From the NCBI GenBank assembly GCA_025936825.1, contig JAICSO010000025.1, forward strand, positions 1 to 55,310: a stretch of 55,310 bases of DNA. Direction: 5' to 3'. This document shows, in pieces, positions 25,129-35,155 of this stretch. The position numbers and the translations under genes were made by a program. Within the stretch, counting starts at the first letter, position 1; each line of letters opens with the position of its first letter. Under the pieces are notes generated by a model. It was not told the origin of the DNA. It did not search any database and saw nothing but the letters and a program-made list of their open reading frames with translations. The DNA comes from Terriglobales bacterium (GTDB lineage: Bacteria > Acidobacteriota > Terriglobia > Terriglobales > Acidobacteriaceae).

Positions 25129-26496
25129 TCACGCCTTGGCGGCGCGAGAACGTTCGACAGAAGCCTGCTTCATCTCGGTGCTCGCCTCGCGAGTCAGGTC
25201 TTTGGCGCCGAACTCGACACCGATTTTCTTCAAAAAATCGTTGGGCGGAGTGCCGCCGGCGAAGATCCACACAAAATCGTTAGGAATTTCCTGCGTTTGC
25301 CCATTCGCCTGTAGAACAACACTTTCAGCTTTGAATTCCACCGGAGAGGAGTTGAAGAGGACTTTCACCTTTCCCGCGCGCATGTCGTCCTCGATGCGCT
25401 TGGCATTGCGGTCCTTGATACGGCTGAACTGGGCTTGACGGTACGACAACGTGACCTCGTTGCCTACTTGCCGGGCTAGGCCCATGGCAGCTTCAACCGC
25501 ACTGTCACCGCCGCCAACGACAAGGATTTTCTTGTTCACGTAATGGTCGGCTTCGATCAGGCGATACATCACTTTGGGGAGTTCTTCGCCTTTCACTCCA
25601 AGCTTGCGCGGATCGCCGGCGCGGCCGAGCGCTAGAATCACAGCGCGAGCACGATACTGATTGTTGGCAGAGCTGATGGTGAAAACGTCACCAAACTTTT
25701 GGATGTTTTCGATTTTCTCGCCGGTAACCGCATTGAAATCGGCGCGGTTCAGCACCATGTCCCAGAAGGCGAGCAGGTTCTCTTTGGAGAGTTGCAGCTT
25801 TTCGAACTTGCCGTACATGGGGAATTCAACCGGGCTGGTCATAACCAGTTTCTGGCGCGGATACTTTGAAACCGTGCCGCCAACTTCATCTTTCTCGATA
25901 GTCACGAATTTCAGCTTCTTCTCAATGGCGCGCAACGAGGCACTGATCCCCGCAGGCCCCGCGCCAATAATGACGACGTCATGCACGTCTTTGTCAAGCG
26001 GGGGAGCTGTGGCTATCCGGCGCGCGATCGTATCGATGCACTCGCGGCCTTGATTGACGGCGTTCTTGATCAAAGCCAAGCCCCCGAGTTCACCGGCGAT
26101 AAAGAGATTGGGGACGTTGGTTTCGAACTCCGGCGTGAGGCGCGGCAGGTCGGCGCTCATGCTGGGACTCGTCATCACCATGGTGATCGCGCCCACAGGA
26201 CACGCCTCGGCGCACAGGCTATGCCCAATGCACTTGTAACCGTTGACGATCGCCGCTTTGCCGCCGAGCATGGCGAGTACATCGCCTTCGGGGCAAACGT
26301 GCGTGCAACTCTGACAACCGATGCAGTAGTTCACATCGATATGCGGGTGCTGGGCCCTCGGGCCTTCGGACATCAGCTTGCCGTTCTCCGCCGATTTCTG
26401 CGCCTTCTCTTCACGAACTTTGAGGCTTTTGAGATATCCGCGCAGGAAAAAGGCGCAGATGGCAGCCGCAATGGCAATGGTGATCAGCGTGTCCAT
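25129..26496 (-). CDS. Membrane-anchored ferredoxin-flavoprotein oxidoreductase
   Basis: The 455-residue protein has an N-terminal helix (about 3-19), a 2x4Fe-4S ferredoxin-like domain and a thioredoxin-reductase-like FAD/NAD(P)H domain. The first cluster motif is C58, C61, C64, C68. The second reads C89, H92, C95, C99, so a His replaces one Cys. The FAD motif is IIGAGPAGIS near residue 176 and the pyridine-nucleotide motif VVGGGDSAVEAA near 325. The CxxC redox pair of true thioredoxin reductase is missing. Electrons likely pass NAD(P)H-FAD-FeS to the cytochrome b encoded 6 bp upstream, at the cytoplasmic membrane face. It is the last gene of the electron-transfer operon. Confidence 0.85.
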   Translation of the reverse strand: MDTLITIAIAAAICAFFLRGYLKSLKVREEKAQKSAENGKLMSEGPRAQHPHIDVNYCIGCQSCTHVCPEGDVLAMLGGKAAIVNGYKCIGHSLCAEACPVGAITMVMTSPSMSADLPRLTPEFETNVPNLFIAGELGGLALIKNAVNQGRECIDTIARRIATAPPLDKDVHDVVIIGAGPAGISASLRAIEKKLKFVTIEKDEVGGTVSKYPRQKLVMTSPVEFPMYGKFEKLQLSKENLLAFWDMVLNRADFNAVTGEKIENIQKFGDVFTISSANNQYRARAVILALGRAGDPRKLGVKGEELPKVMYRLIEADHYVNKKILVVGGGDSAVEAAMGLARQVGNEVTLSYRQAQFSRIKDRNAKRIEDDMRAGKVKVLFNSSPVEFKAESVVLQANGQTQEIPNDFVWIFAGGTPPNDFLKKIGVEFGAKDLTREASTEMKQASVERSRAAKA

Positions 26497-26502
26497 GGAG
26501 TT

Positions 26503-27438
26503 CTAGAAGTATCCCATCATCATGACGACCACAATGTGGATCAGCGCTAATACTGCAAAAGAGTAGCTGAAGGGCTTATGCACCACGTGCCAGAGGTGGA
26601 AAACCTGTTGCGAGCGCGAGAGAAATAGAACGCGTTTGGCGAGTGATGCTTCTTCCCGGGCAAGCAACATCGCCCTTTCAAGGCCGATATTGCTGGTCGG
26701 AAGAAATCCCGCCAAGGTTGTGAGTTTCTGACCGAAAGGCAATGCATGGCGACGGATGCTGGCGACTCGGAAGACGCGCGCAATGTCTAGAAACATCATG
26801 TAGACGAGCGCAATCGGCATCGGAAGGCGCGACACGCTTTCCTTGCTGGGAAGGCGCAAGAGCGAACGCAGGTCTGTCTGCGGCAGCAGTCGTTGCTGCG
26901 CCAGTTGCTGCGAAAGCTGAGTCTGGATTTCCTGCAATTCCGCCATCGAGATTTCAGCCGCGTTCACGCGTCGTGGAATTTGTGAGTAGAGGTATCGGCC
27001 GATCAACCCGCTCAGCGACACCGAGAGCATGATCCAGAAGGCGATGCCGGCAAATCCGTGAAATTTAAACGACGAATGGAACGCGATCACGAATGGCGCG
27101 CTTACGCCCAGCAGTACGTGAAAGTCCAGCCAATGGCGCGCGCTTCCCTGCTGGCCCAACCACGCCCACTTCTTGCGCAAGGGATACACAAAAATCGCGA
27201 GGAACATGCCCAGGCCGAGAAAACCGAGTTTGAGCCCGATCGTGCCGCTTGGACGCAACACGGCATGTTTTGGTGAGAATGGGCGCGCGGCCGAACTCAA
27301 GGTGTAGTAGTCGTATCCGTATGCGGCCAGAGCGACCACCAGCAAAATGGCGAATACCCACCCGGCGATTAATCGCGCGCGATGGGAGCGGTCCTGATTC
27401 GAAATGGCAATAACTGCGGAAGAGACGGTAGCGTTCAT
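26503..27438 (-). CDS. Di-haem membrane cytochrome b-like protein
   Basis: The 311-residue protein has about five or six hydrophobic helices. Two helices carry histidine pairs at the spacing used for two stacked b haems: H107/H121 and H287/H301, each 14 residues apart. Further His at 127, 281 and 284 lie near the membrane surfaces. A charged loop with coiled-coil character (about 160-200) separates the halves. It overlaps the preceding gene by 4 bp and lies 6 bp before the flavoprotein gene. I infer that it moves electrons across the inner membrane between the flavoprotein and periplasmic cytochromes, possibly through quinones. No exact family name is assigned. Confidence 0.75.
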   Translation of the reverse strand: MNATVSSAVIAISNQDRSHRARLIAGWVFAILLVVALAAYGYDYYTLSSAARPFSPKHAVLRPSGTIGLKLGFLGLGMFLAIFVYPLRKKWAWLGQQGSARHWLDFHVLLGVSAPFVIAFHSSFKFHGFAGIAFWIMLSVSLSGLIGRYLYSQIPRRVNAAEISMAELQEIQTQLSQQLAQQRLLPQTDLRSLLRLPSKESVSRLPMPIALVYMMFLDIARVFRVASIRRHALPFGQKLTTLAGFLPTSNIGLERAMLLAREEASLAKRVLFLSRSQQVFHLWHVVHKPFSYSFAVLALIHIVVVMMMGYF

Positions 27439-28235
27439 TTTTCGGCAACCTTTTTGTCGTGTTCCTCAGAACTCACGGAGAAAGCCTTGTAGTCAGTAAA
27501 GCGGTGCGTGTTGTGCCAGTGCTGACGCGGAGTTTCCACATCGACGCTGGCCAGCGACGGCAACCAATAATCCTGCGTCCCGAATTTCTGCGGAATGAAT
27601 TCGATTTCAGACCGTAGCGACTTCAACCCGACGTCGGTCAGCGTTTCGCCGATGCCGGCTTCGATCTTGGCAATGTCGCCAGTTGCGGGATCAATCCATG
27701 CGGTTCCTGACAACTCGAGCGGAGACTCCCGTCCGCGCAGTGCGAGCGCGGCGGGGGAGCGCATGCCAGCGACATGCTCAAAGGCAATCTTTTCCAGCAC
27801 GCGGCCGCTCAAGGTTTCCGCGCCTGCGTCCGTGAAGTGGAAGCTCCCGATATATGCCGAATGAAAAACAAGAAACAGCGTTGCGAATCCATTGCTCAGC
27901 AGCATTGGCGTATTTTTCTTGTCGGCTTTGGCTTCGTGCACGGCGATGCGAGATTCCTGCAGGGTCAAGTCGCCGCCGTCGTCCGATAGAAGAATCACAT
28001 AATTGAACGTGGACTCTTCTTTTCTTTCGACCTTGCCGTCAGCCCGAAGCTTCTCTTGCTGCACCTGCTCGATGCACTGAACGTTGGAAAACTGATCGAC
28101 GAGCTTGGTCACGTGAGTACTCGTGCGCGACAGGAGATCATCGAGATTTACGGGAGAGGCATGCGGAGCGGCGAGTAGCAGCGCCGGCAGTGTCAACAGG
28201 ATTCCGATGGAAACGAGATGGAATTTGCACTTCAT
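27435..28235 (-). CDS. Exported protein of unknown function in the cytochrome operon
   Basis: The 266-residue protein has a signal peptide (about 1-22) and a soluble periplasmic region. I do not recognise the family. The fold seems beta-rich, with segments such as GTAWIDPATGDIAKIE that recall LolA/outer-membrane lipoprotein-sorting-like beta sheets, but this is weak. It overlaps its neighbours by 4 bp on both sides, so it belongs to the same transcript as the barrel protein and the cytochrome b. No haem motif is present. Confidence 0.75.
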   Translation of the reverse strand: MKCKFHLVSIGILLTLPALLLAAPHASPVNLDDLLSRTSTHVTKLVDQFSNVQCIEQVQQEKLRADGKVERKEESTFNYVILLSDDGGDLTLQESRIAVHEAKADKKNTPMLLSNGFATLFLVFHSAYIGSFHFTDAGAETLSGRVLEKIAFEHVAGMRSPAALALRGRESPLELSGTAWIDPATGDIAKIEAGIGETLTDVGLKSLRSEIEFIPQKFGTQDYWLPSLASVDVETPRQHWHNTHRFTDYKAFSVSSEEHDKKVAEK

Positions 28236-30895
28236 TGCTGGTGCCTCTTGGAATCAAAGCGATAGCCGAGCGTGAACATCCACTGGTCGTAGCTCATTTG
28301 TCCGCGGTTGGTGGTGAAGCTTCCCTGCACGAAGTAGTGCGCGCCAACGTTCAGGTCGAGGCTGTTCATCACGAACCATGTGCGGCCGGAGTTGGTCATC
28401 AAACCGGTGAACGATTGCTGTCCGGCCATGATTTCAGCGTGCAAGTCATCTGTCAGATTTCGTGATAGCGAGAACGCTTTGTATTTTCCGGAGCCGAAGG
28501 AGCTGTTGAATTCTGCGTAATGGAAGTCGGCGCGCAACGCCCACAACGGCAGGTGCGAAAACGTGATCCCGTACATCTGGTTGAGCGACGCGCTGCTGTC
28601 ACCGCTGCGACTGCTGCGGCCAAGCTGCGTGTAAACGGTCATGTTTTTGATGAACTCGTAGCGAGCGCCGGCGCTGAATCCCTGGAACAGATACTTATCG
28701 AGCAAGCCGGTACTGATCAGCGTCGGATCGAACGTAGGGATGTCGCGGAAATATGTGTGATTGCCATCGAGTTCCAGGCGCGGCGTAACCTGGAATCGAA
28801 CAGTGAAGAAGTTCCGGCTCAAACCGACCCCGGGCGCAGGAACCGCTGGATTTCCCGCCGGGCTATCGACCTGGAGCGCGTCATAAAGGGAAACACGCTG
28901 CGCGTAGGACAAAGAATTTTCCAGGAATCCAAATGGGCGATCGGGCTTCCACTGCAACATGCTCAGCCCCGCGCCGAAGGTGCTGCTGTAGTGAAATTTC
29001 TGGAAATCGCCGCCGGCGAAATTGACGAAGGCGCCGCCGATAGATCGGTTGGGCGCGTAGTCGTAGGAGGTCGGATCAGGAGTCGATCCGCCAAAAATGC
29101 CGACGGTCGCGGTATCAGAAACTTTCCTGCCCACGTATCCACCGTCGATGGTGTCCAGGCTGCTGGCCCAGGGCAGGTACAGACGCCCGAATCCTGCAAC
29201 CCAATTCGAATTCGGATTCGCGTAAGTCATGCTGAGGTGATAAGTCCGGTTGATCAGATCCTGCAACGTGGGAGTGCCGGATGACGATTGCGAGGTCAAA
29301 CGCCCACGCCAATAGCCGCTCAGGTTCCAGTAGGTGCCACCAATGCGCGTAATGTCTCCGCGAAACATCATTCCGAGAGAAGACGACGAGGCAGAACTCG
29401 AACCGTAGCTCTTGGTGCCCATGTAGTCGAATCCAAAGCGTCCGCGCGCCCGGTTGACGGATGGCAGGGGCGGCTTCGGCATCTCGTCACGAACTTCTTC
29501 ATCTTCGGGATCGCCTTCTGTGAAACTGATCACCGCCGGGTATTTCCTGCTCGGACTCAAGGCGTTCGCCTGCACGAGCGCGTCGGCGTCGGCGGAAGAA
29601 AGATATGCGAGGTCGCCCACTTTGACCGGCCGCTTGGAATCGTGGATGTCAGTGACAGAAGAGCTTTCTGCGACTGCGCTGATTTCAAGTTCCGCCACGA
29701 CGCGAGGGTCGGTAGGAGCAACGGAGGTGCCGTCTTTCGCGGTGCCGTCGGCGTCGCGGATTTCGAGCTTCACGCCTTCTTTCAAGCCGGCATTGCGGCC
29801 ACCATCGAGATAAGCCACACCATCGGCGACATACTTGACGCGGAAAACAGTGCGCAAACTGGGATCGGCAGCACGAATCGCGAGCCGCGGGTCCGTGGTG
29901 TTGCTGGCCATCATCGTGGCGTCACTCGGCATTTCTCGGGATCCGGCTGGCTTGAGTGGTTCTGCCGGTGCTTTCGACGCGGAAGCTGCTGTTCCCTGTG
30001 GCTCTGACGCTACGGCACTTAATTCGACGGGCGCGGTGGTAGCGGTCACGGCCGAAGGCTCCGGTTGACTGACCGTCGGAATCGCAGCACTGCTTACGGT
30101 CGCATTTGGCGTGGATGCAGGTGTGCTCACAGTGGAATTTGCTGCCGTAGCGCCAGAACTCGTCGCGGCATGCTGACTCTGCGGTGAGTTCACAGATCCT
30201 GTCCCGGGCGCGGGCTTCGGCGAAACCGATGGGAAACTCAGGTTCGCACTGGAATGGTCTGACGCAGCGCGGGACTGTGATGCAACCGAACCTTCTTGCG
30301 GCATTTTTGGCGCCTTCTGCACACTGCCGCTGGTGGGAGGCTGCGAGATCTGCCCTCCCGCAAGGCTTCCGCCAGTAGCTGCGGCCGGAGTACTGTGCGC
30401 TGATTCAACCTGGACACCGGGGACATCTTTCTCGTGGTGGAAGATACCAGTCAAAGTTCCGCGTTTTGCGGCAGTGAGCGCGCCATCGGAACTTCGGCCA
30501 ACCGGCATCAGCACAAAGCTGATGTGCTCATCCGTCGCGCTCACGCTGTAATCCAGGGGATGATCCAGTTCGACGACGATTCTGGTGCGCGTTGGATGGG
30601 TTAACGAATGCACGATCTCAATCGTGCGCACTCCACCGGCCTTGATCTGCATCTTTGGCAGATTGCTGCCATCGATCGTATTGGGGAGCTCAATAATCAG
30701 GCGGTTGGGATTGACGGCCGCGCTCGTCGATGGCTGGACTAGCGCGGTCAGCACCAGTTCGATCTGTGGACGTCCGCTATTCTCAGAGACGAGAATGTCC
30801 CGGAGCACGACCAGATCAGTCGCGGAGTCCTGCGCGGCCGCGCCAGAAGCCAGCAGCAGCAACGCCCATCCAAATTGCCTTTGTATCGCCCTCAT
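28232..30895 (-). CDS. AMIN-like domain plus outer-membrane beta-barrel protein
   Basis: The protein has 887 residues from ATG 30895 (GTG 30898 is also possible). After a signal peptide (ending ASGAAAQ), an AMIN-like domain spans about 25-130. A long Ala/Ser/Thr/Pro-rich linker (about 150-330) follows, then a small domain with LDGGRNAGLKEG near 355. The C-terminal 400 residues show alternating aromatic strands ending in FTLGYRF, the signature of an outer-membrane barrel. AMIN domains in other proteins bind cell wall. The barrel gene lies 39 bp after the 25-haem cytochrome gene and overlaps the next gene by 4 bp, so it may be the porin sheath or docking site for the cytochrome. Confidence 0.8.
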   Translation of the reverse strand: MRAIQRQFGWALLLLASGAAAQDSATDLVVLRDILVSENSGRPQIELVLTALVQPSTSAAVNPNRLIIELPNTIDGSNLPKMQIKAGGVRTIEIVHSLTHPTRTRIVVELDHPLDYSVSATDEHISFVLMPVGRSSDGALTAAKRGTLTGIFHHEKDVPGVQVESAHSTPAAATGGSLAGGQISQPPTSGSVQKAPKMPQEGSVASQSRAASDHSSANLSFPSVSPKPAPGTGSVNSPQSQHAATSSGATAANSTVSTPASTPNATVSSAAIPTVSQPEPSAVTATTAPVELSAVASEPQGTAASASKAPAEPLKPAGSREMPSDATMMASNTTDPRLAIRAADPSLRTVFRVKYVADGVAYLDGGRNAGLKEGVKLEIRDADGTAKDGTSVAPTDPRVVAELEISAVAESSSVTDIHDSKRPVKVGDLAYLSSADADALVQANALSPSRKYPAVISFTEGDPEDEEVRDEMPKPPLPSVNRARGRFGFDYMGTKSYGSSSASSSSLGMMFRGDITRIGGTYWNLSGYWRGRLTSQSSSGTPTLQDLINRTYHLSMTYANPNSNWVAGFGRLYLPWASSLDTIDGGYVGRKVSDTATVGIFGGSTPDPTSYDYAPNRSIGGAFVNFAGGDFQKFHYSSTFGAGLSMLQWKPDRPFGFLENSLSYAQRVSLYDALQVDSPAGNPAVPAPGVGLSRNFFTVRFQVTPRLELDGNHTYFRDIPTFDPTLISTGLLDKYLFQGFSAGARYEFIKNMTVYTQLGRSSRSGDSSASLNQMYGITFSHLPLWALRADFHYAEFNSSFGSGKYKAFSLSRNLTDDLHAEIMAGQQSFTGLMTNSGRTWFVMNSLDLNVGAHYFVQGSFTTNRGQMSYDQWMFTLGYRFDSKRHQQ

Positions 30896-30934
30896 CACTC
30901 TCGTTCATAAGTGCGCCTGAAGCGCAGCCGCCTG

Positions 30935-32887
30935 CTATCCCCCTCCCCCGGTCGGGTGGCACTGGTAGCAGTTGATGCTGTTGTAAACGTAGTTCCGCAC
31001 GCCCTGATGGTTCGAATCCGTCTGGCTCTTGGTGTGGCAATTCGTACATGAAAAGACGGTGTAGTCGTTGGGATTGGTGTGGCACGTGGAACAAACGCCA
31101 TTCGCGTTGCCGTGATTGGTCGGGAACCAGGTGTGGTTGAAGACTGCGCCCAACCAAGAAGTGGTGTTATGGCATGTCTGACAAGTGGTCGGGAACCCCG
31201 CCGCAATGTGGTTTGGGTTGTTCGTTCCCTGGTAATCCGTCTGATGGCAGCCGTAACAAGCCGTTGGCAGCGTCGTGTAGTTGTTGTTCACGTGACACTG
31301 CGCACAGGGGACGTTCACGTGAAAGCCCGTCAGCGGAAACGTTGTCAGGTTATGATTAAACGTCGCCTGCAACCACGACGTGGTGTTGTGACACACCTCG
31401 CAAGTGTTCGGGAAACCCGCCGAGGCATGTGGAGGGTTGTTGGTCGCGTTGTAATCCGGCATATGACAAGCCGAGCAGGCCGGATTGGTCAGGTTGTAAT
31501 TCCCATTCACATGGCACTGCGCGCACGGAGTAGTTAGGTGCATGCCTGTTAACGGAAACCCAGTGTTGTTGTGATTGAAGGTCGCCGTCAGCCAGGAAAC
31601 GGTTGAGTGGCAGATCGAGCAGTCCACTGGGAACGCAGCCTGGACATGGTTAGGATTGGTGGTGCCGTTGTAATCCGGCATATGGCACAGATTGCAGGCG
31701 CCGCTGGTCAGGTTGTAGTTGTTGTTGACGTGGCACTGCGCACACTGCAGGTTCGCGTGTCCATTCGTAAGCGGGAAGCCAACTGAATTGTGGTCGAAGC
31801 TCGCCTGTAGCCATGAAACCGTGTTGTGACAGGTTTGGCAGGTGGTCGGAAATCCTGCTGCAGCGTGATTCGGGTTATTAGCGCCGTTGTAATCGGGCAT
31901 GTGGCACTGGTTGCAAGCTCCGCTGGTCAGGTTGTAGTTGTTGTTGACATGGCACTGCGTGCACTGCAGGTTTGCATGCCCGTTGGTCAACGGGAAACCA
32001 ACCGAGTTGTGATCGAAACTAGCAGGCTGCCAGGCCGTTGTGTTGTGGCAAAGCTGGCAAGTAGTCGGAAAATTCGCCGAAACGTGATTCGGGCTCGTGG
32101 CCTTCTGATAATCCGGCATGTGACAACCGCTGCACGTAGCCGAAGTGCCCTTAAATTGGTTATTCGCGTGACACGCGTTGCAGGCTAAGGTTGCGTGCGC
32201 GCCAGTTAGCGCATAACCGGTGAACTTCAGGTGATCAAAACGAACGTTGAACCAAGTGTCGAACCCGTGGCACTGTTCGCACGACGTGGAAAATCCAGCC
32301 GCGGCATGACTCGGACCGGTTGTTGCCTGAAAATCTTTGGCGTGACAGGAATAGCAAGCGGTCTGGAGTCCCTGGAATTGCCCCACGGCAGCGCTCTTGT
32401 GGCACGAGTCGCAGTCGAGCGCAGCGTGCGCGCCCATTAGTGGAAAACGGTTCTGGTGGTTCTGTATCTGCTGCACCGATACCTGCCATCCCTTGACCGT
32501 GTGGCATTGTTCGCAAGCGGAACCAAACTGACGCTTGTGAATATCGGCATGGCAGTCGGAACACTTCGTGCTCACGTTGCTGAACACCAGCTTCGTGTGG
32601 CACGACATGCACGGCACTTTCTCATGCATGCTGCGCAAGGGATATTTCGTCTGGTTGTGATCAAACTCGGGCACGCTGCGGATCGGCTTCCATCCACTAA
32701 ACGTGTGGCAGTTCTGGCATGGAATATTCAACGGCCCGTGTGGACTTCGCGTAGTCTTGCTCCCCTGGTGCGCAGGCATACTCGAGGCACACATCAACGC
32801 AAACAGGATCAGCCCCACAAAGAGTCGGATTGTTCCAAGCCCACGTTTCCGCAAAAAGCGCGGAAGAATGGGGTCGCGTTGAGACAC
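30935..32887 (-). CDS. 25-haem c-type cytochrome with triple-haem tandem repeats
   Basis: The 650-residue exported protein carries 25 CXXCH haem-binding motifs, one per 26 residues. The N-terminal hydrophobic segment (about 20-36) is a signal peptide or anchor. Motifs at 277, 350, 423, 496 and 569 start modules exactly 73 residues long. Each module contains three haem sites (CxxCH-NTxSW, CxQCH-VNNNY, CxxCH-MPDY) and three extra His (DH or NH, GxH, NPxH) suited to be distal ligands, so bis-His haems are expected. The start is GTG 32887 with GAGGGGAGA upstream. The gene heads the run barrel, exported protein, cytochrome b, flavoprotein. It probably forms a long periplasmic or extracellular electron wire. 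Confidence 0.95.
   Translation of the reverse strand: MSQRDPILPRFLRKRGLGTIRLFVGLILFALMCASSMPAHQGSKTTRSPHGPLNIPCQNCHTFSGWKPIRSVPEFDHNQTKYPLRSMHEKVPCMSCHTKLVFSNVSTKCSDCHADIHKRQFGSACEQCHTVKGWQVSVQQIQNHQNRFPLMGAHAALDCDSCHKSAAVGQFQGLQTACYSCHAKDFQATTGPSHAAAGFSTSCEQCHGFDTWFNVRFDHLKFTGYALTGAHATLACNACHANNQFKGTSATCSGCHMPDYQKATSPNHVSANFPTTCQLCHNTTAWQPASFDHNSVGFPLTNGHANLQCTQCHVNNNYNLTSGACNQCHMPDYNGANNPNHAAAGFPTTCQTCHNTVSWLQASFDHNSVGFPLTNGHANLQCAQCHVNNNYNLTSGACNLCHMPDYNGTTNPNHVQAAFPVDCSICHSTVSWLTATFNHNNTGFPLTGMHLTTPCAQCHVNGNYNLTNPACSACHMPDYNATNNPPHASAGFPNTCEVCHNTTSWLQATFNHNLTTFPLTGFHVNVPCAQCHVNNNYTTLPTACYGCHQTDYQGTNNPNHIAAGFPTTCQTCHNTTSWLGAVFNHTWFPTNHGNANGVCSTCHTNPNDYTVFSCTNCHTKSQTDSNHQGVRNYVYNSINCYQCHPTGGGG
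31184..32059 (-). repeat. Four 219-bp in-frame tandem repeats
   Basis: These are the DNA of four identical-length 73-codon modules of the 25-haem cytochrome (residues 277-568). Nucleotide similarity between neighbouring units is high, so unequal crossing-over could change haem number by threes. Confidence 0.85.
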
Positions 32888-33223
32888 GAGTTCTCCCCTC
32901 GAACTATCCGCACGACTTTTTTTAAAAAATGATTCCGAACTAAGGCGAACAATGACTTCCGGACTGAACTGGTGGCAAAGTGATTAACGGCTCTACTGCA
33001 ATTCGACGCCCAACCAGAGTAGAAGGTTGTGCAGGTCAGAAAAAGTCACGAAAGGACGCTGCCCGAATCGGCGGTACACGCATTGTCTGAATTCTCGGCG
33101 AGTACAACAGAGCAGACGAACAGAATGTAAGTTCTTCTGCAGCTTTCGCAATTCTTACGTTGTTAAAAATCGCAACAGTTGCGGGCCATCGAGGTCATAC
33201 ATCGGCCTATTACCCCGCTGTCG
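32888..33223 (-). other. 336-bp gap between the two cytochrome genes
   Basis: No gene is seen. An AT-rich tract CTTTTTTTAAAAAATG near 32917-32931 lies about 30-40 bp upstream of the 25-haem gene and may belong to its promoter. The gap makes separate transcription of the downstream five-gene run likely. Confidence 0.5.
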
Positions 33224-35155
33224 CTAGCTGACCTTTTCCGCGCCGTGGCACGCAGCACATTCTTTTGGCGTGGGCTTGTAGAACAGGACAGGTTTGCCTT
33301 CGACCTGACGCGTCAGTTTGTGGCAATCGGCGCATTTCACGTTCGCGTGCACGCCTTGCAGCGGGAAAGCGGTGCGCCGGTTGTGGTCGAAGAGCGACGG
33401 TTTCCACTTGGCGCTGTTGTGACATTCGGCGCAGGGCGTGACGTCTCCACGCGCGAACTGCTTGCCATGGGGATCGTCGTGGCACTGCTCGCACTGTTTG
33501 GGAGCGGCTTTGAAGTCGACGTGCATCATGTTGGTTTCGAGATTCGGCGGTTTGTGGCAATCGATGCACGCGGTGGCGCGATGCGCACCCAGCAGCGGGA
33601 AACCTGTCTTCGAATGATCGAACTTGCTCAATTCCCTCCAAGACTTCGTGGAATGGCAGGTCTCGCACCCGCCCGCACCTCCCGCAGCCTTCGCCTGCTG
33701 CATGCGCTGATTGAACTGGCCACGGTGTGGATCGGCGTGGCAACTGGTGCAACTCAAATTGGCCCAGTGATAAATCGCCGTGGGCGGCTTGAGGTCGGCA
33801 GACTGCTTGTGGCAATCGGCACAAGGCACCGCGATGTGCTCGCCGGTCAGAAGAAAGCGTGTTTCTTTGTGGCGCGTCAACGAAAACGTGGACGGCCGAT
33901 ACGTTTCAACCGTGTGGCAACGTTCACACGCGTTGAAATATGGCGCTGCTGCGAACTGGCCGGAGTGCGTGTCCTCGTGGCAGTCGGTGCAGTGCTCAAA
34001 CTTCATCTTGAACACCGTGTCGGAACCGCGAGGGATGTGGCATTTTTGGCATCCCACTCTGGCGTGAGCACCCTGCAACGGATATGCAGTAGTGGCATGA
34101 TTCGTGACCGTAAAAGTTGACGGTTTCCAGCCAGCCACCGTGTGACACCCGGCGCATTCACCGCCATCGGGACGCTTTGCGAACTGCCCCTTGTGGGGAT
34201 CGGGATTGTGGCAGTCGGCGCATTTTCCAAACGCAATCGGTTTTTTAAAATCACCACTCCCGTGGCACTGAATGCATCCGACTGCTGCGTGTTTTCCGAG
34301 TAACGGGAACTTGGTTTTCGAGTGATCGAATTTCTCATTCAGCCCCGCGGCAAGCTTCTTCCACCCACTGGTGTTGTGGCAGGATTGGCAAGTCTGGGTG
34401 AATGCCCCGTGGTGCGGATCGCGATGGCAATCCGAGCACTGCCCGAACGGAATGCCGCTGTAACGTGGCTTGTTGTCGGGACCAGGCCTGTGGCACTTTT
34501 CGCAGGTAACCTGCATATGCATCCCGGTCAATGCGTAGCGCGTTTTCGAGTGATCGAATTGCTGCGGGCTGACCGTCTTCCAGTCAGTCGAGTTGTGACA
34601 CTGCGCGCAGTTGTTGCCTAAACGCCCCTGGTGCGCGTCCTGGTGGCAACTTACACATGATTGCGAGAGTCCGAGGAACGTGCGATTAAGATCTTTGATC
34701 TTGAGATTGGCGCGCTGAGCTGGCGGAATCTTTTCCGCTGTATGGCATTGATTGCAGGACAATCCAGCATGCTTGCCTTCCAGCTTGAATCCGCTGAGTG
34801 CATGATTGAAGTTTTTCGTGTCCCACTTGATCAGCGGAAAATTTTCGCCATTATGGTCGGAGTGGCACGTTGGGCATCCTTGGCTGGATCCAGGCTGAAT
34901 GTTGTAGGTGGCGTGAAGGCCTTTATGCGCGGCAACGCGAGACGCGATCTCGGCATGACACTCGAGGCACTTGAAGGTGCGCTCGCGCCCAAGCGCATGG
35001 CAGGTGGTGCAATTTGCAGAGCCGTTCAGCGACTGGTGCGCCCCTGCGAGCGGCCCAGGAGAAATCTGCGCGGGCGCCACGCCATGCAGGCACACTGCGG
35101 CTATGACTGCGAGAAGACAGGCAAGAAGTGGATGCTTCGATCTCACGTCGTACAT
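33224..35155 (-). CDS. 23-haem c-type cytochrome
   Basis: From ATG 35155 the protein has 643 residues and 23 CXXCH motifs, one per 28 residues. A signal peptide covers about residues 9-30. The motifs recur in threes as CxxCH-xxxxW, CxxCH and CxxCH-xDPH, with extra His in FDH and GxH positions, as in the 25-haem neighbour. The spacing is less regular, so it is a diverged paralogue. No membrane or barrel segment is present, so it is periplasmic or exported. It lies 336 bp upstream of the 25-haem gene on the same strand. An open frame extends to 35335, but the signal peptide fixes the start. Confidence 0.93.
   Translation of the reverse strand: MYDVRSKHPLLACLLAVIAAVCLHGVAPAQISPGPLAGAHQSLNGSANCTTCHALGRERTFKCLECHAEIASRVAAHKGLHATYNIQPGSSQGCPTCHSDHNGENFPLIKWDTKNFNHALSGFKLEGKHAGLSCNQCHTAEKIPPAQRANLKIKDLNRTFLGLSQSCVSCHQDAHQGRLGNNCAQCHNSTDWKTVSPQQFDHSKTRYALTGMHMQVTCEKCHRPGPDNKPRYSGIPFGQCSDCHRDPHHGAFTQTCQSCHNTSGWKKLAAGLNEKFDHSKTKFPLLGKHAAVGCIQCHGSGDFKKPIAFGKCADCHNPDPHKGQFAKRPDGGECAGCHTVAGWKPSTFTVTNHATTAYPLQGAHARVGCQKCHIPRGSDTVFKMKFEHCTDCHEDTHSGQFAAAPYFNACERCHTVETYRPSTFSLTRHKETRFLLTGEHIAVPCADCHKQSADLKPPTAIYHWANLSCTSCHADPHRGQFNQRMQQAKAAGGAGGCETCHSTKSWRELSKFDHSKTGFPLLGAHRATACIDCHKPPNLETNMMHVDFKAAPKQCEQCHDDPHGKQFARGDVTPCAECHNSAKWKPSLFDHNRRTAFPLQGVHANVKCADCHKLTRQVEGKPVLFYKPTPKECAACHGAEKVS

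Follow-up and report, generated by a model that had tools for sequence, protein, structure and literature searches.

A block of six genes on the minus strand (positions 25129-35155) of the window, by which we mean the whole 55,310-nucleotide stretch of contig JAICSO010000025.1 from a Terriglobales bacterium, probably encodes a multihaem electron conduit that crosses the envelope and draws on NAD(P)H. In order of transcription, the genes encode two exported c-type cytochromes, MHC-A (643 amino acids, 23 CXXCH motifs; 33224..35155) and MHC-B (650 amino acids, 25 CXXCH motifs; 30935..32887), an exported AMIN-plus-barrel protein (888 amino acids; 28232..30898), the exported 266-amino acid protein Exp266 (27435..28235), CytB, a predicted di-haem cytochrome b (311 amino acids; 26503..27438), and the iron-sulfur flavoprotein FeSFlav (455 amino acids; 25129..26496). 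This inventory agrees with the initial annotation, which had listed, all on one strand, exported cytochromes with 23 and 25 CXXCH motifs, a barrel, an exported protein, a di-haem cytochrome b and a membrane FeS-flavoprotein. The tight spacing it had reported for the last five genes was recovered from the coordinates (36, -4, -4 and 6 bp), with MHC-A placed 336 bp upstream of the packed five. The proposed function draws on this gene set, its co-conservation, the conservation of haem sites and His residues, a structure model of the barrel, an exchange of the electron entry module, and haem numbers that are fixed in one cytochrome and variable in the other.

Judged by sequence conservation, the block is real and recurs across the phylum. 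A search for the same set in other acidobacteria, which the initial annotation had put forward as a check, found the genes conserved together both in 25 related loci and in a sample of 396 Acidobacteriota genomes. The 25 loci, obtained by a scan with CytB and all titled as Acidobacteria-type organisms, contain FeSFlav (25), Exp266 (24), the barrel (22), MHC-B (19) and MHC-A (16), and many of them end at contig edges; some genomes occur twice (identical rows) among loci L005-L041. MHC-A is absent from L014, and MHC-B and the barrel from L023, in stretches not stopped by a contig end. In L015 and L021 the FeSFlav gene has the reverse orientation. With frames overlapping the block set aside, the commonest other family within the 25 largest clusters was seen in 4 of 26 sources. 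A whole-genome search recovered a full barrel in all five genomes searched (those of L014, L019, L023, L026 and L028), at other loci in the case of L023 (strain AB60), whose CytB locus also contains FeSFlav and MHC-A.

The 396-genome sample, to which all phylum counts refer, contains CytB in 57 genomes at E<=0.001, 42 of which score at least 150 bits; weaker CytB relatives (<80 bits) are not counted among these. MHC-A (E<=1e-60) occurs in 38 genomes, all within these 42 (Fisher 7e-49; this and the following values ignore kinship). FeSFlav occurs in 36 genomes at E<=1e-90, and the 30 that score at least 420 bits all fall within the 42 (Fisher 1e-35); the other six are G016, one of the 42, and five genomes with longer frames (770-824 amino acids) like P0007, a distant acidobacterial cousin. 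The barrel was detected in 46 genomes at E<=0.001 and reaches at least 180 bits in 14, namely the whole 12-genome CytB clade of the window plus G116 and G242 (Fisher 3e-21). The thresholds of 150, 420 and 180 bits were set at visible gaps after the score lists had been seen. Barrels of distant clades give weak profile scores, yet lie beside MHC-B-type genes in many loci. Four CytB genomes lack MHC-A at E<=1e-60 (G003, G191, G300 and G308); a weaker MHC-A-type frame lies by CytB in three of them (loci L079, L046 and L051), and none was found in the fetched stretch of G300 (L076). Within the host's own family, CytB is patchy (45 of 200 genomes at E<=1e-60), and at the same threshold it was found in none of the seven other listed genomes of the genus, some of which are incomplete.

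CytB carries two His pairs, H107/H121 and H287/H301, and each of the four positions is His in every aligned stretch that has a letter there, distant clades included (66, 67, 66 and 66 of 71 rows, respectively). A structure model places the pairs on helices 100-121 and 273-310. The H-x13-H spacing in the two helices is compatible with two b haems, and we infer their assignment to the sides of the membrane. CytB has no CXXCH motif and gave no Pfam or NCBIfam match at E<=0.1, and a scan of its family at E<=1 returned Ferric_reduct in 19 of 26 members (best E 0.0023), DUF4405 in 19 and Ni_hydr_CYTB in 5 (best 6.7e-6). Enzymes of the NOX, Fre and SpNOX type pass electrons from NAD(P)H through flavin to two b haems held on two helices with His-x13-His. 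CytB resembles these enzymes in its two helices with invariant His pairs; it differs in that its Ferric_reduct match stays below the Pfam cut-off (11.9 bits on P0002 against 28), in that the window's flavoprotein is TrxR/YpdA-like with [4Fe-4S] clusters, and in that the electrons appear to enter a haem wire.

FeSFlav joins an N-terminal hydrophobic segment, which suggests a membrane anchor, to a 2x[4Fe-4S] ferredoxin domain (26179..26346, from Pfam and the alignment) and a permuted TrxR/YpdA-like FAD/NAD(P)H domain. Pfam recognises 4Fe-4S dicluster and pyridine-nucleotide oxidoreductase domains. Residues 173-434 align to the main fold of solved YpdA-type reductases and residues 123-163, weakly, to their C-terminal end; in the same manner, residues 170-429 align to residues 2-260 of P0007 (3e-42) and residues 118-160 to its residues 269-311 (3e-07). 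Because the two blocks occur in swapped order, FeSFlav is circularly permuted, with the ferredoxin domain placed in front and the segment that is C-terminal in TrxR/YpdA-type flavoproteins (26017..26145) lying ahead of the FAD/NAD(P)H domain. The motif of the second cluster, CxxHxxCxxxCP, carries His where the second Cys would be expected, and this His is present in 48 of the 56 rows with a letter. YpdA, a bacillithiol disulfide reductase, has its active-site Cys in GGGPCG; the corresponding residue of FeSFlav is A182, and each of the 57 rows with a letter has A, G or S there. Both A182 and the score (177.8 bits against a cut-off of 339.9) set FeSFlav apart from YpdA.

FeSFlav also varies in architecture. 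A second subtype in L009, L017, L020 and L028, with 40-43% identity to that of the window, has an extra zinc-ribbon-like stretch (CPRC...CxxCG) ahead of the ferredoxin domain, and a 613-amino acid FeSFlav (L012:10955-12796) ends in a partial second copy of the flavoprotein domain. A cousin system (L055:7547-12984, and by its look L054 too) combines a CytB relative with a 790-amino acid YpdA-like flavoprotein that bears two cNMP-binding domains and 4Fe-4S clusters; it also holds a ten-CXXCH cytochrome with two FHA stretches.

The strongest argument for NAD(P)H as the donor to CytB is that FeSFlav and an unrelated NAD(P)H-type module replace each other beside it. FeSFlav at 420 bits or more is missing from 12 of the 42 CytB genomes. 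In 11 of these a reductase of the FNR type adjoins CytB, and the twelfth, G016, has FeSFlav in pieces; the 42 genomes thus divide into 31 with FeSFlav and 11 with the FNR-type reductase. All three FNR-type reductases scanned carry FAD_binding_6, NAD_binding_1 and a C-terminal Fer2, and two of them also carry the ferric-reductase domain NAD_binding_6 above cut-off, a domain set that resembles NOX and ferric reductases; the other eight were recognised by a profile built from these three (458-733 bits). The reductase gene lies 0-117 bp from CytB in ten genomes and 746 bp away in one. No fetched CytB locus holds both modules. Five loci hold neither in the fetched stretch (L049, L082, L083, L086 and L088), and their genomes have FeSFlav elsewhere. 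In G005, the genome of L049, FeSFlav sits at the end of a different contig, and CytB is broken into two open frames ahead of a fused cytochrome with 51 CXXCH motifs (L049:9257-13967).

A CytB tree was built from 62 of 67 loci (aligned length of at least 200), of which 58 were distinct; the FNR loci L060, L076 and L077 were dropped. Among the 58 rows, the eight FNR rows used are split from the rest by a branch with 100/99 support. The exchange of modules thus corresponds to one change on the tree, kept in 11 sampled genomes, and two unrelated NAD(P)H-type flavo-iron-sulfur modules appear to serve the same CytB. The swap strengthens the NAD(P)H entry that the initial annotation had predicted, and for work confined to sequences the electron entry step has good support.

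Both cytochromes give c7/c3-type Pfam matches, and their CXXCH content is far from that of shuffled cytochrome sequences (mean 0.3, maximum 4). MHC-A is a cytochrome of fixed length, a putative 'bridge': alignment A3 has 23 CXXCH motifs in 11 of 12 rows, the window included, and 21 in L027, which contains an X run. MHC-A-type haem spacing starts about 15, 25-31, 40-43. All 39 fetched MHC-A-type frames also have a PG.[LV]...H motif at the N-terminus, which none of 29 MHC-B-type frames has. The 39 frames comprise 22 with 23 haems, five with 24 and four with 20 (both numbers belonging to other clades), that of L027, one with 5 (L079, at a contig end) and six fused cytochromes with 32-53. In four of the six (L049, L050, L052 and L053) the MHC-A-type spacing start continues into three-haem repeats, and two (L073 and L074; 40 and 44 haems) are fused by haem number only; four of the six frames reach a contig end. 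That both types run together in one frame in some lineages implies that MHC-A and MHC-B probably work in series. In L057:8854-10289 and L058:8865-10390, small CytB relatives (231-247 amino acids) overlap genes of seven-CXXCH cytochromes that carry the N-terminal PG.L...H motif of MHC-A; CytB may dock at this motif.

MHC-B is built as a variable-length 'wire'. In the window, it contains five tandem three-haem units of 73-74 amino acids (31184..32281; CXXCH spacing 32-33, 16, 25, repeated), and TRF reports a 219-bp period with 2.0 copies at 31664-32093. Members of the window's clade share a plan of a seven-haem head, k three-haem units and a three-haem tail, so that haem number N = 3k+10; with k of 4-11, this fits 14 of the 16 complete members, window included, whose haems range from 20 to 54. 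The exceptions are L007 (54 haems, 15 units), which lacks one head haem, and L019 (20 haems), which has lost some motifs; the count excludes L011, L017, L024 and L025, which are truncated at contig ends or divided between frames. The CytBs of L007 and L008 are 91.5% identical, with 54 versus 43 haems in their MHC-B proteins. Collapse of the repeats during assembly is unlikely, because neighbouring units share 55-94% DNA identity. The claim that 48 c-haems are exceptional for one locus was not borne out, as a relative has 66.

His residues outside CXXCH are at least about equal in number to the haems (26 for 25 haems, 30 for 23 and 53 for 54), as bis-His ligation requires. MHC-A has more Lys, and MHC-B fewer charged residues, in the window and in three relatives that were compared; no conserved lipobox was seen by eye. 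Because the haem number of MHC-A is fixed and that of MHC-B variable, MHC-A would have to bridge a set distance, perhaps the periplasm, and MHC-B would not.

The third gene starts at GTG, or at an ATG at 30895, and encodes an AMIN domain (30521..30790; PF11741, 34.2 bits against a cut-off of 20.5) followed by a C-terminal domain that is modelled as a 22-strand beta-barrel (28253..29452). The 50 fold matches listed for the model are all outer-membrane barrels, in keeping with the outer-membrane type proposed initially, and both OccK-type porins and TonB-dependent barrels resemble the model. MtrB is not among the fold matches listed, which excludes nothing. The aligned rows share a recurring GYRFD-like segment close to the C-terminus. 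No Pfam match beyond AMIN and FlgT_C and no Pfam or NCBIfam barrel family was found at E<=0.1, nor any PDB sequence match at E<=1. The AMIN domain and a long low-complexity linker are confined to part of the homologues, whose aligned lengths are 576-1239 amino acids; an AMIN stretch was read by eye in 7 of the 19 rows of alignment A4. Exp266, which is co-conserved in the window's clade, has no Pfam match above cut-off. Two genomes without a CytB match, G116 and G242, have a barrel homologue adjacent to an 11-12-CXXCH cytochrome (L062:9216-11882 and L063:3-2517), one of these cytochromes being cut by a contig end; possible readings are a stand-alone pair or a decaying set.

In the proposed conduit, membrane-anchored FeSFlav would oxidise cytosolic NAD(P)H, and its two [4Fe-4S] clusters would hand the electrons to CytB, whose two b haems would carry them over the inner membrane with no quinone needed. 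On the periplasmic side, the electrons would pass into the 23-haem MHC-A, which would reach towards the outer membrane, and from there to the barrel and the repeat-built MHC-B. MHC-B would then deliver them to an extracellular acceptor, for example Fe(III) minerals, humic quinones or another cell. The outward direction, the quinone bypass, the spanning of the periplasm, the surface location and the acceptor are the predicted parts of this route. An extracellular-type conduit built differently from Mtr/Pcc systems and equipped with an entry module of its own at the inner membrane had been suggested initially, and the barrel model, the co-conservation and the balance of His and haems support it. 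A more far-reaching version can be offered tentatively: a hard-wired, quinone-independent cable leading from NAD(P)H through a NOX-like di-haem b protein and a periplasm-spanning ruler cytochrome of 20, 23 or 24 haems to an outer-surface wire, which would evolve by three-haem units and have an entry exchangeable between two unrelated reductases.

Other arrangements of the same proteins were considered. CytB might exchange electrons with the quinone pool, as in CbcL-type systems, leaving the flavoprotein as an accessory NAD(P)H:quinone or regulatory branch of a quinone-linked extracellular conduit. The Ni_hydr_CYTB matches in the CytB family fit this arrangement, but every one of the 42 CytB genomes has FeSFlav or the FNR-type reductase, and a swap of unrelated NAD(P)H-type modules beside the same CytB is hard to explain with a quinol donor; a quinone link is therefore unlikely. 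It is also quite unlikely that the cytochromes stay in the periplasm, storing charge like a capacitor or acting as terminal reductase on a soluble substrate, with the barrel as an ordinary substrate porin. The lack of a conserved lipobox visible by eye and the OccK-like side of the barrel model would suit such a role, and capacitor-like functions have been speculated for proteins with very many haems (PMC11495043; here and below, papers with PMC numbers are cited from excerpts). However, a fixed MHC-A and a stepwise-growing MHC-B would be unexpected for one compartment and one role, and the pairing of barrel and cytochrome also occurs without CytB in G116 and G242.

Electrons could also run inwards, from Fe(II), reduced humics or a partner cell, and end as NAD(P)H. 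Multihaem conduits are reversible in principle, and homologues of CymA and CbcL-type proteins occur in Fe(II) oxidisers (PMC6295460); uptake would nevertheless be uphill to NAD(P)H unless driven, and no coupling site was seen in the six proteins, which makes this direction very improbable.

Compared with known conduits, the set appears to work like a porin-cytochrome system but falls outside several of that family's sequence tests. As in the Mtr/Pcc systems (Shewanella MtrCAB, Geobacter Omb/Oma/Omc and Ext), an outer-membrane barrel gene lies beside genes of exported multihaem c-type cytochromes. Mtr/Pcc cytochromes have about 8-12 haems, whereas those of the window have 23 and 25 and share their cluster with an NAD(P)H-type entry module. 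MHC-A, with its 23 haems, also falls short of the decahaem MtrA/DmsE family (58.2 bits against the TIGR03508 cut-off of 192.2). The tandem c7-like three-haem units of MHC-B recall the Geobacter three-haem 'nanowire' cytochromes, of which GSU1996 is one, and the corresponding model TIGR04257 matches MHC-B in three stretches; however, MHC-B (33.5 bits) and MHC-A (18.2 bits) are both below the cut-off of 40, and in MHC-B the 4-15 units are flanked by a head of six or seven haems and a tail of three. Among inner-membrane proteins (CbcL/MtrH/MtoC and ImcH/CymA; PMC6295460), CbcL combines a membrane part holding two b haems with a part that carries multiple c haems, whereas CytB lacks CXXCH and is paired with NAD(P)H-type flavo-iron-sulfur proteins. 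Porin genes beside multihaem genes are also described in Verrucomicrobia of bogs and soils, for which humic reduction was proposed (PMC5615132); there, the periplasmic cytochromes have eight haems, and the inner-membrane step is marked only as 'ET in IM' in the figure legend.

The host genome (6.54 Mb in 141 contigs, the window being contig C33) contains three matches to the cytochrome c assembly family. It also has five matches above cut-off to haem-copper oxidases, so the host is probably an aerobe; it may use the conduit under oxygen shortage. Nine further stretches fetched from this genome hold 14 frames with at least four CXXCH motifs. Two of them (L068:6641-10430 and L072:8789-12934) contain copies of a five-CXXCH protein gene beside that of a protein of about 1020 amino acids, each pair upstream of a COX1 match; these look like the starts of alternative complex III clusters. 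More multihaem genes, with 2-16 CXXCH motifs, lie in the others (L064, L065, L066, L067, L069, L070 and L071).

Multihaem proteins, mostly of unknown substrate, were reported in all Acidobacteriota metagenome-assembled genomes of one study (PMC8100337), and a Paludibaculum protein has 112 haems (PMC11495043). A Holophaga genome has MtrB- and ExtB/E-type clusters, which the authors of that study regard, as far as they know, as the first likely porin-cytochrome complex in Acidobacteria (PMC7399161), and iron reduction in peat by Acidobacteria has been suggested (PMC3669403); PMC12977616 deals with Geobacter. No description of the present gene set was found in the excerpts and papers searched, which included few subscription papers.

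Many soils are dominated by Acidobacteria, whose physiology continues to be described as mysterious (PMC3669403). If the proposed function is correct, the block would give the phylum a specific genetic marker of extracellular electron transfer, which searches based on MtrB- or Omb/Ext-type models may overlook, and a candidate NAD(P)H entry that bypasses quinone. It would also represent a natural experiment on wire length, in which the haems of MHC-A are fixed and MHC-B is free to grow in three-haem steps. Should the hard-wired cable prove true, Acidobacteriota, the phylum searched, would have their own way to dump reductant outside the cell without shuttles or quinones.

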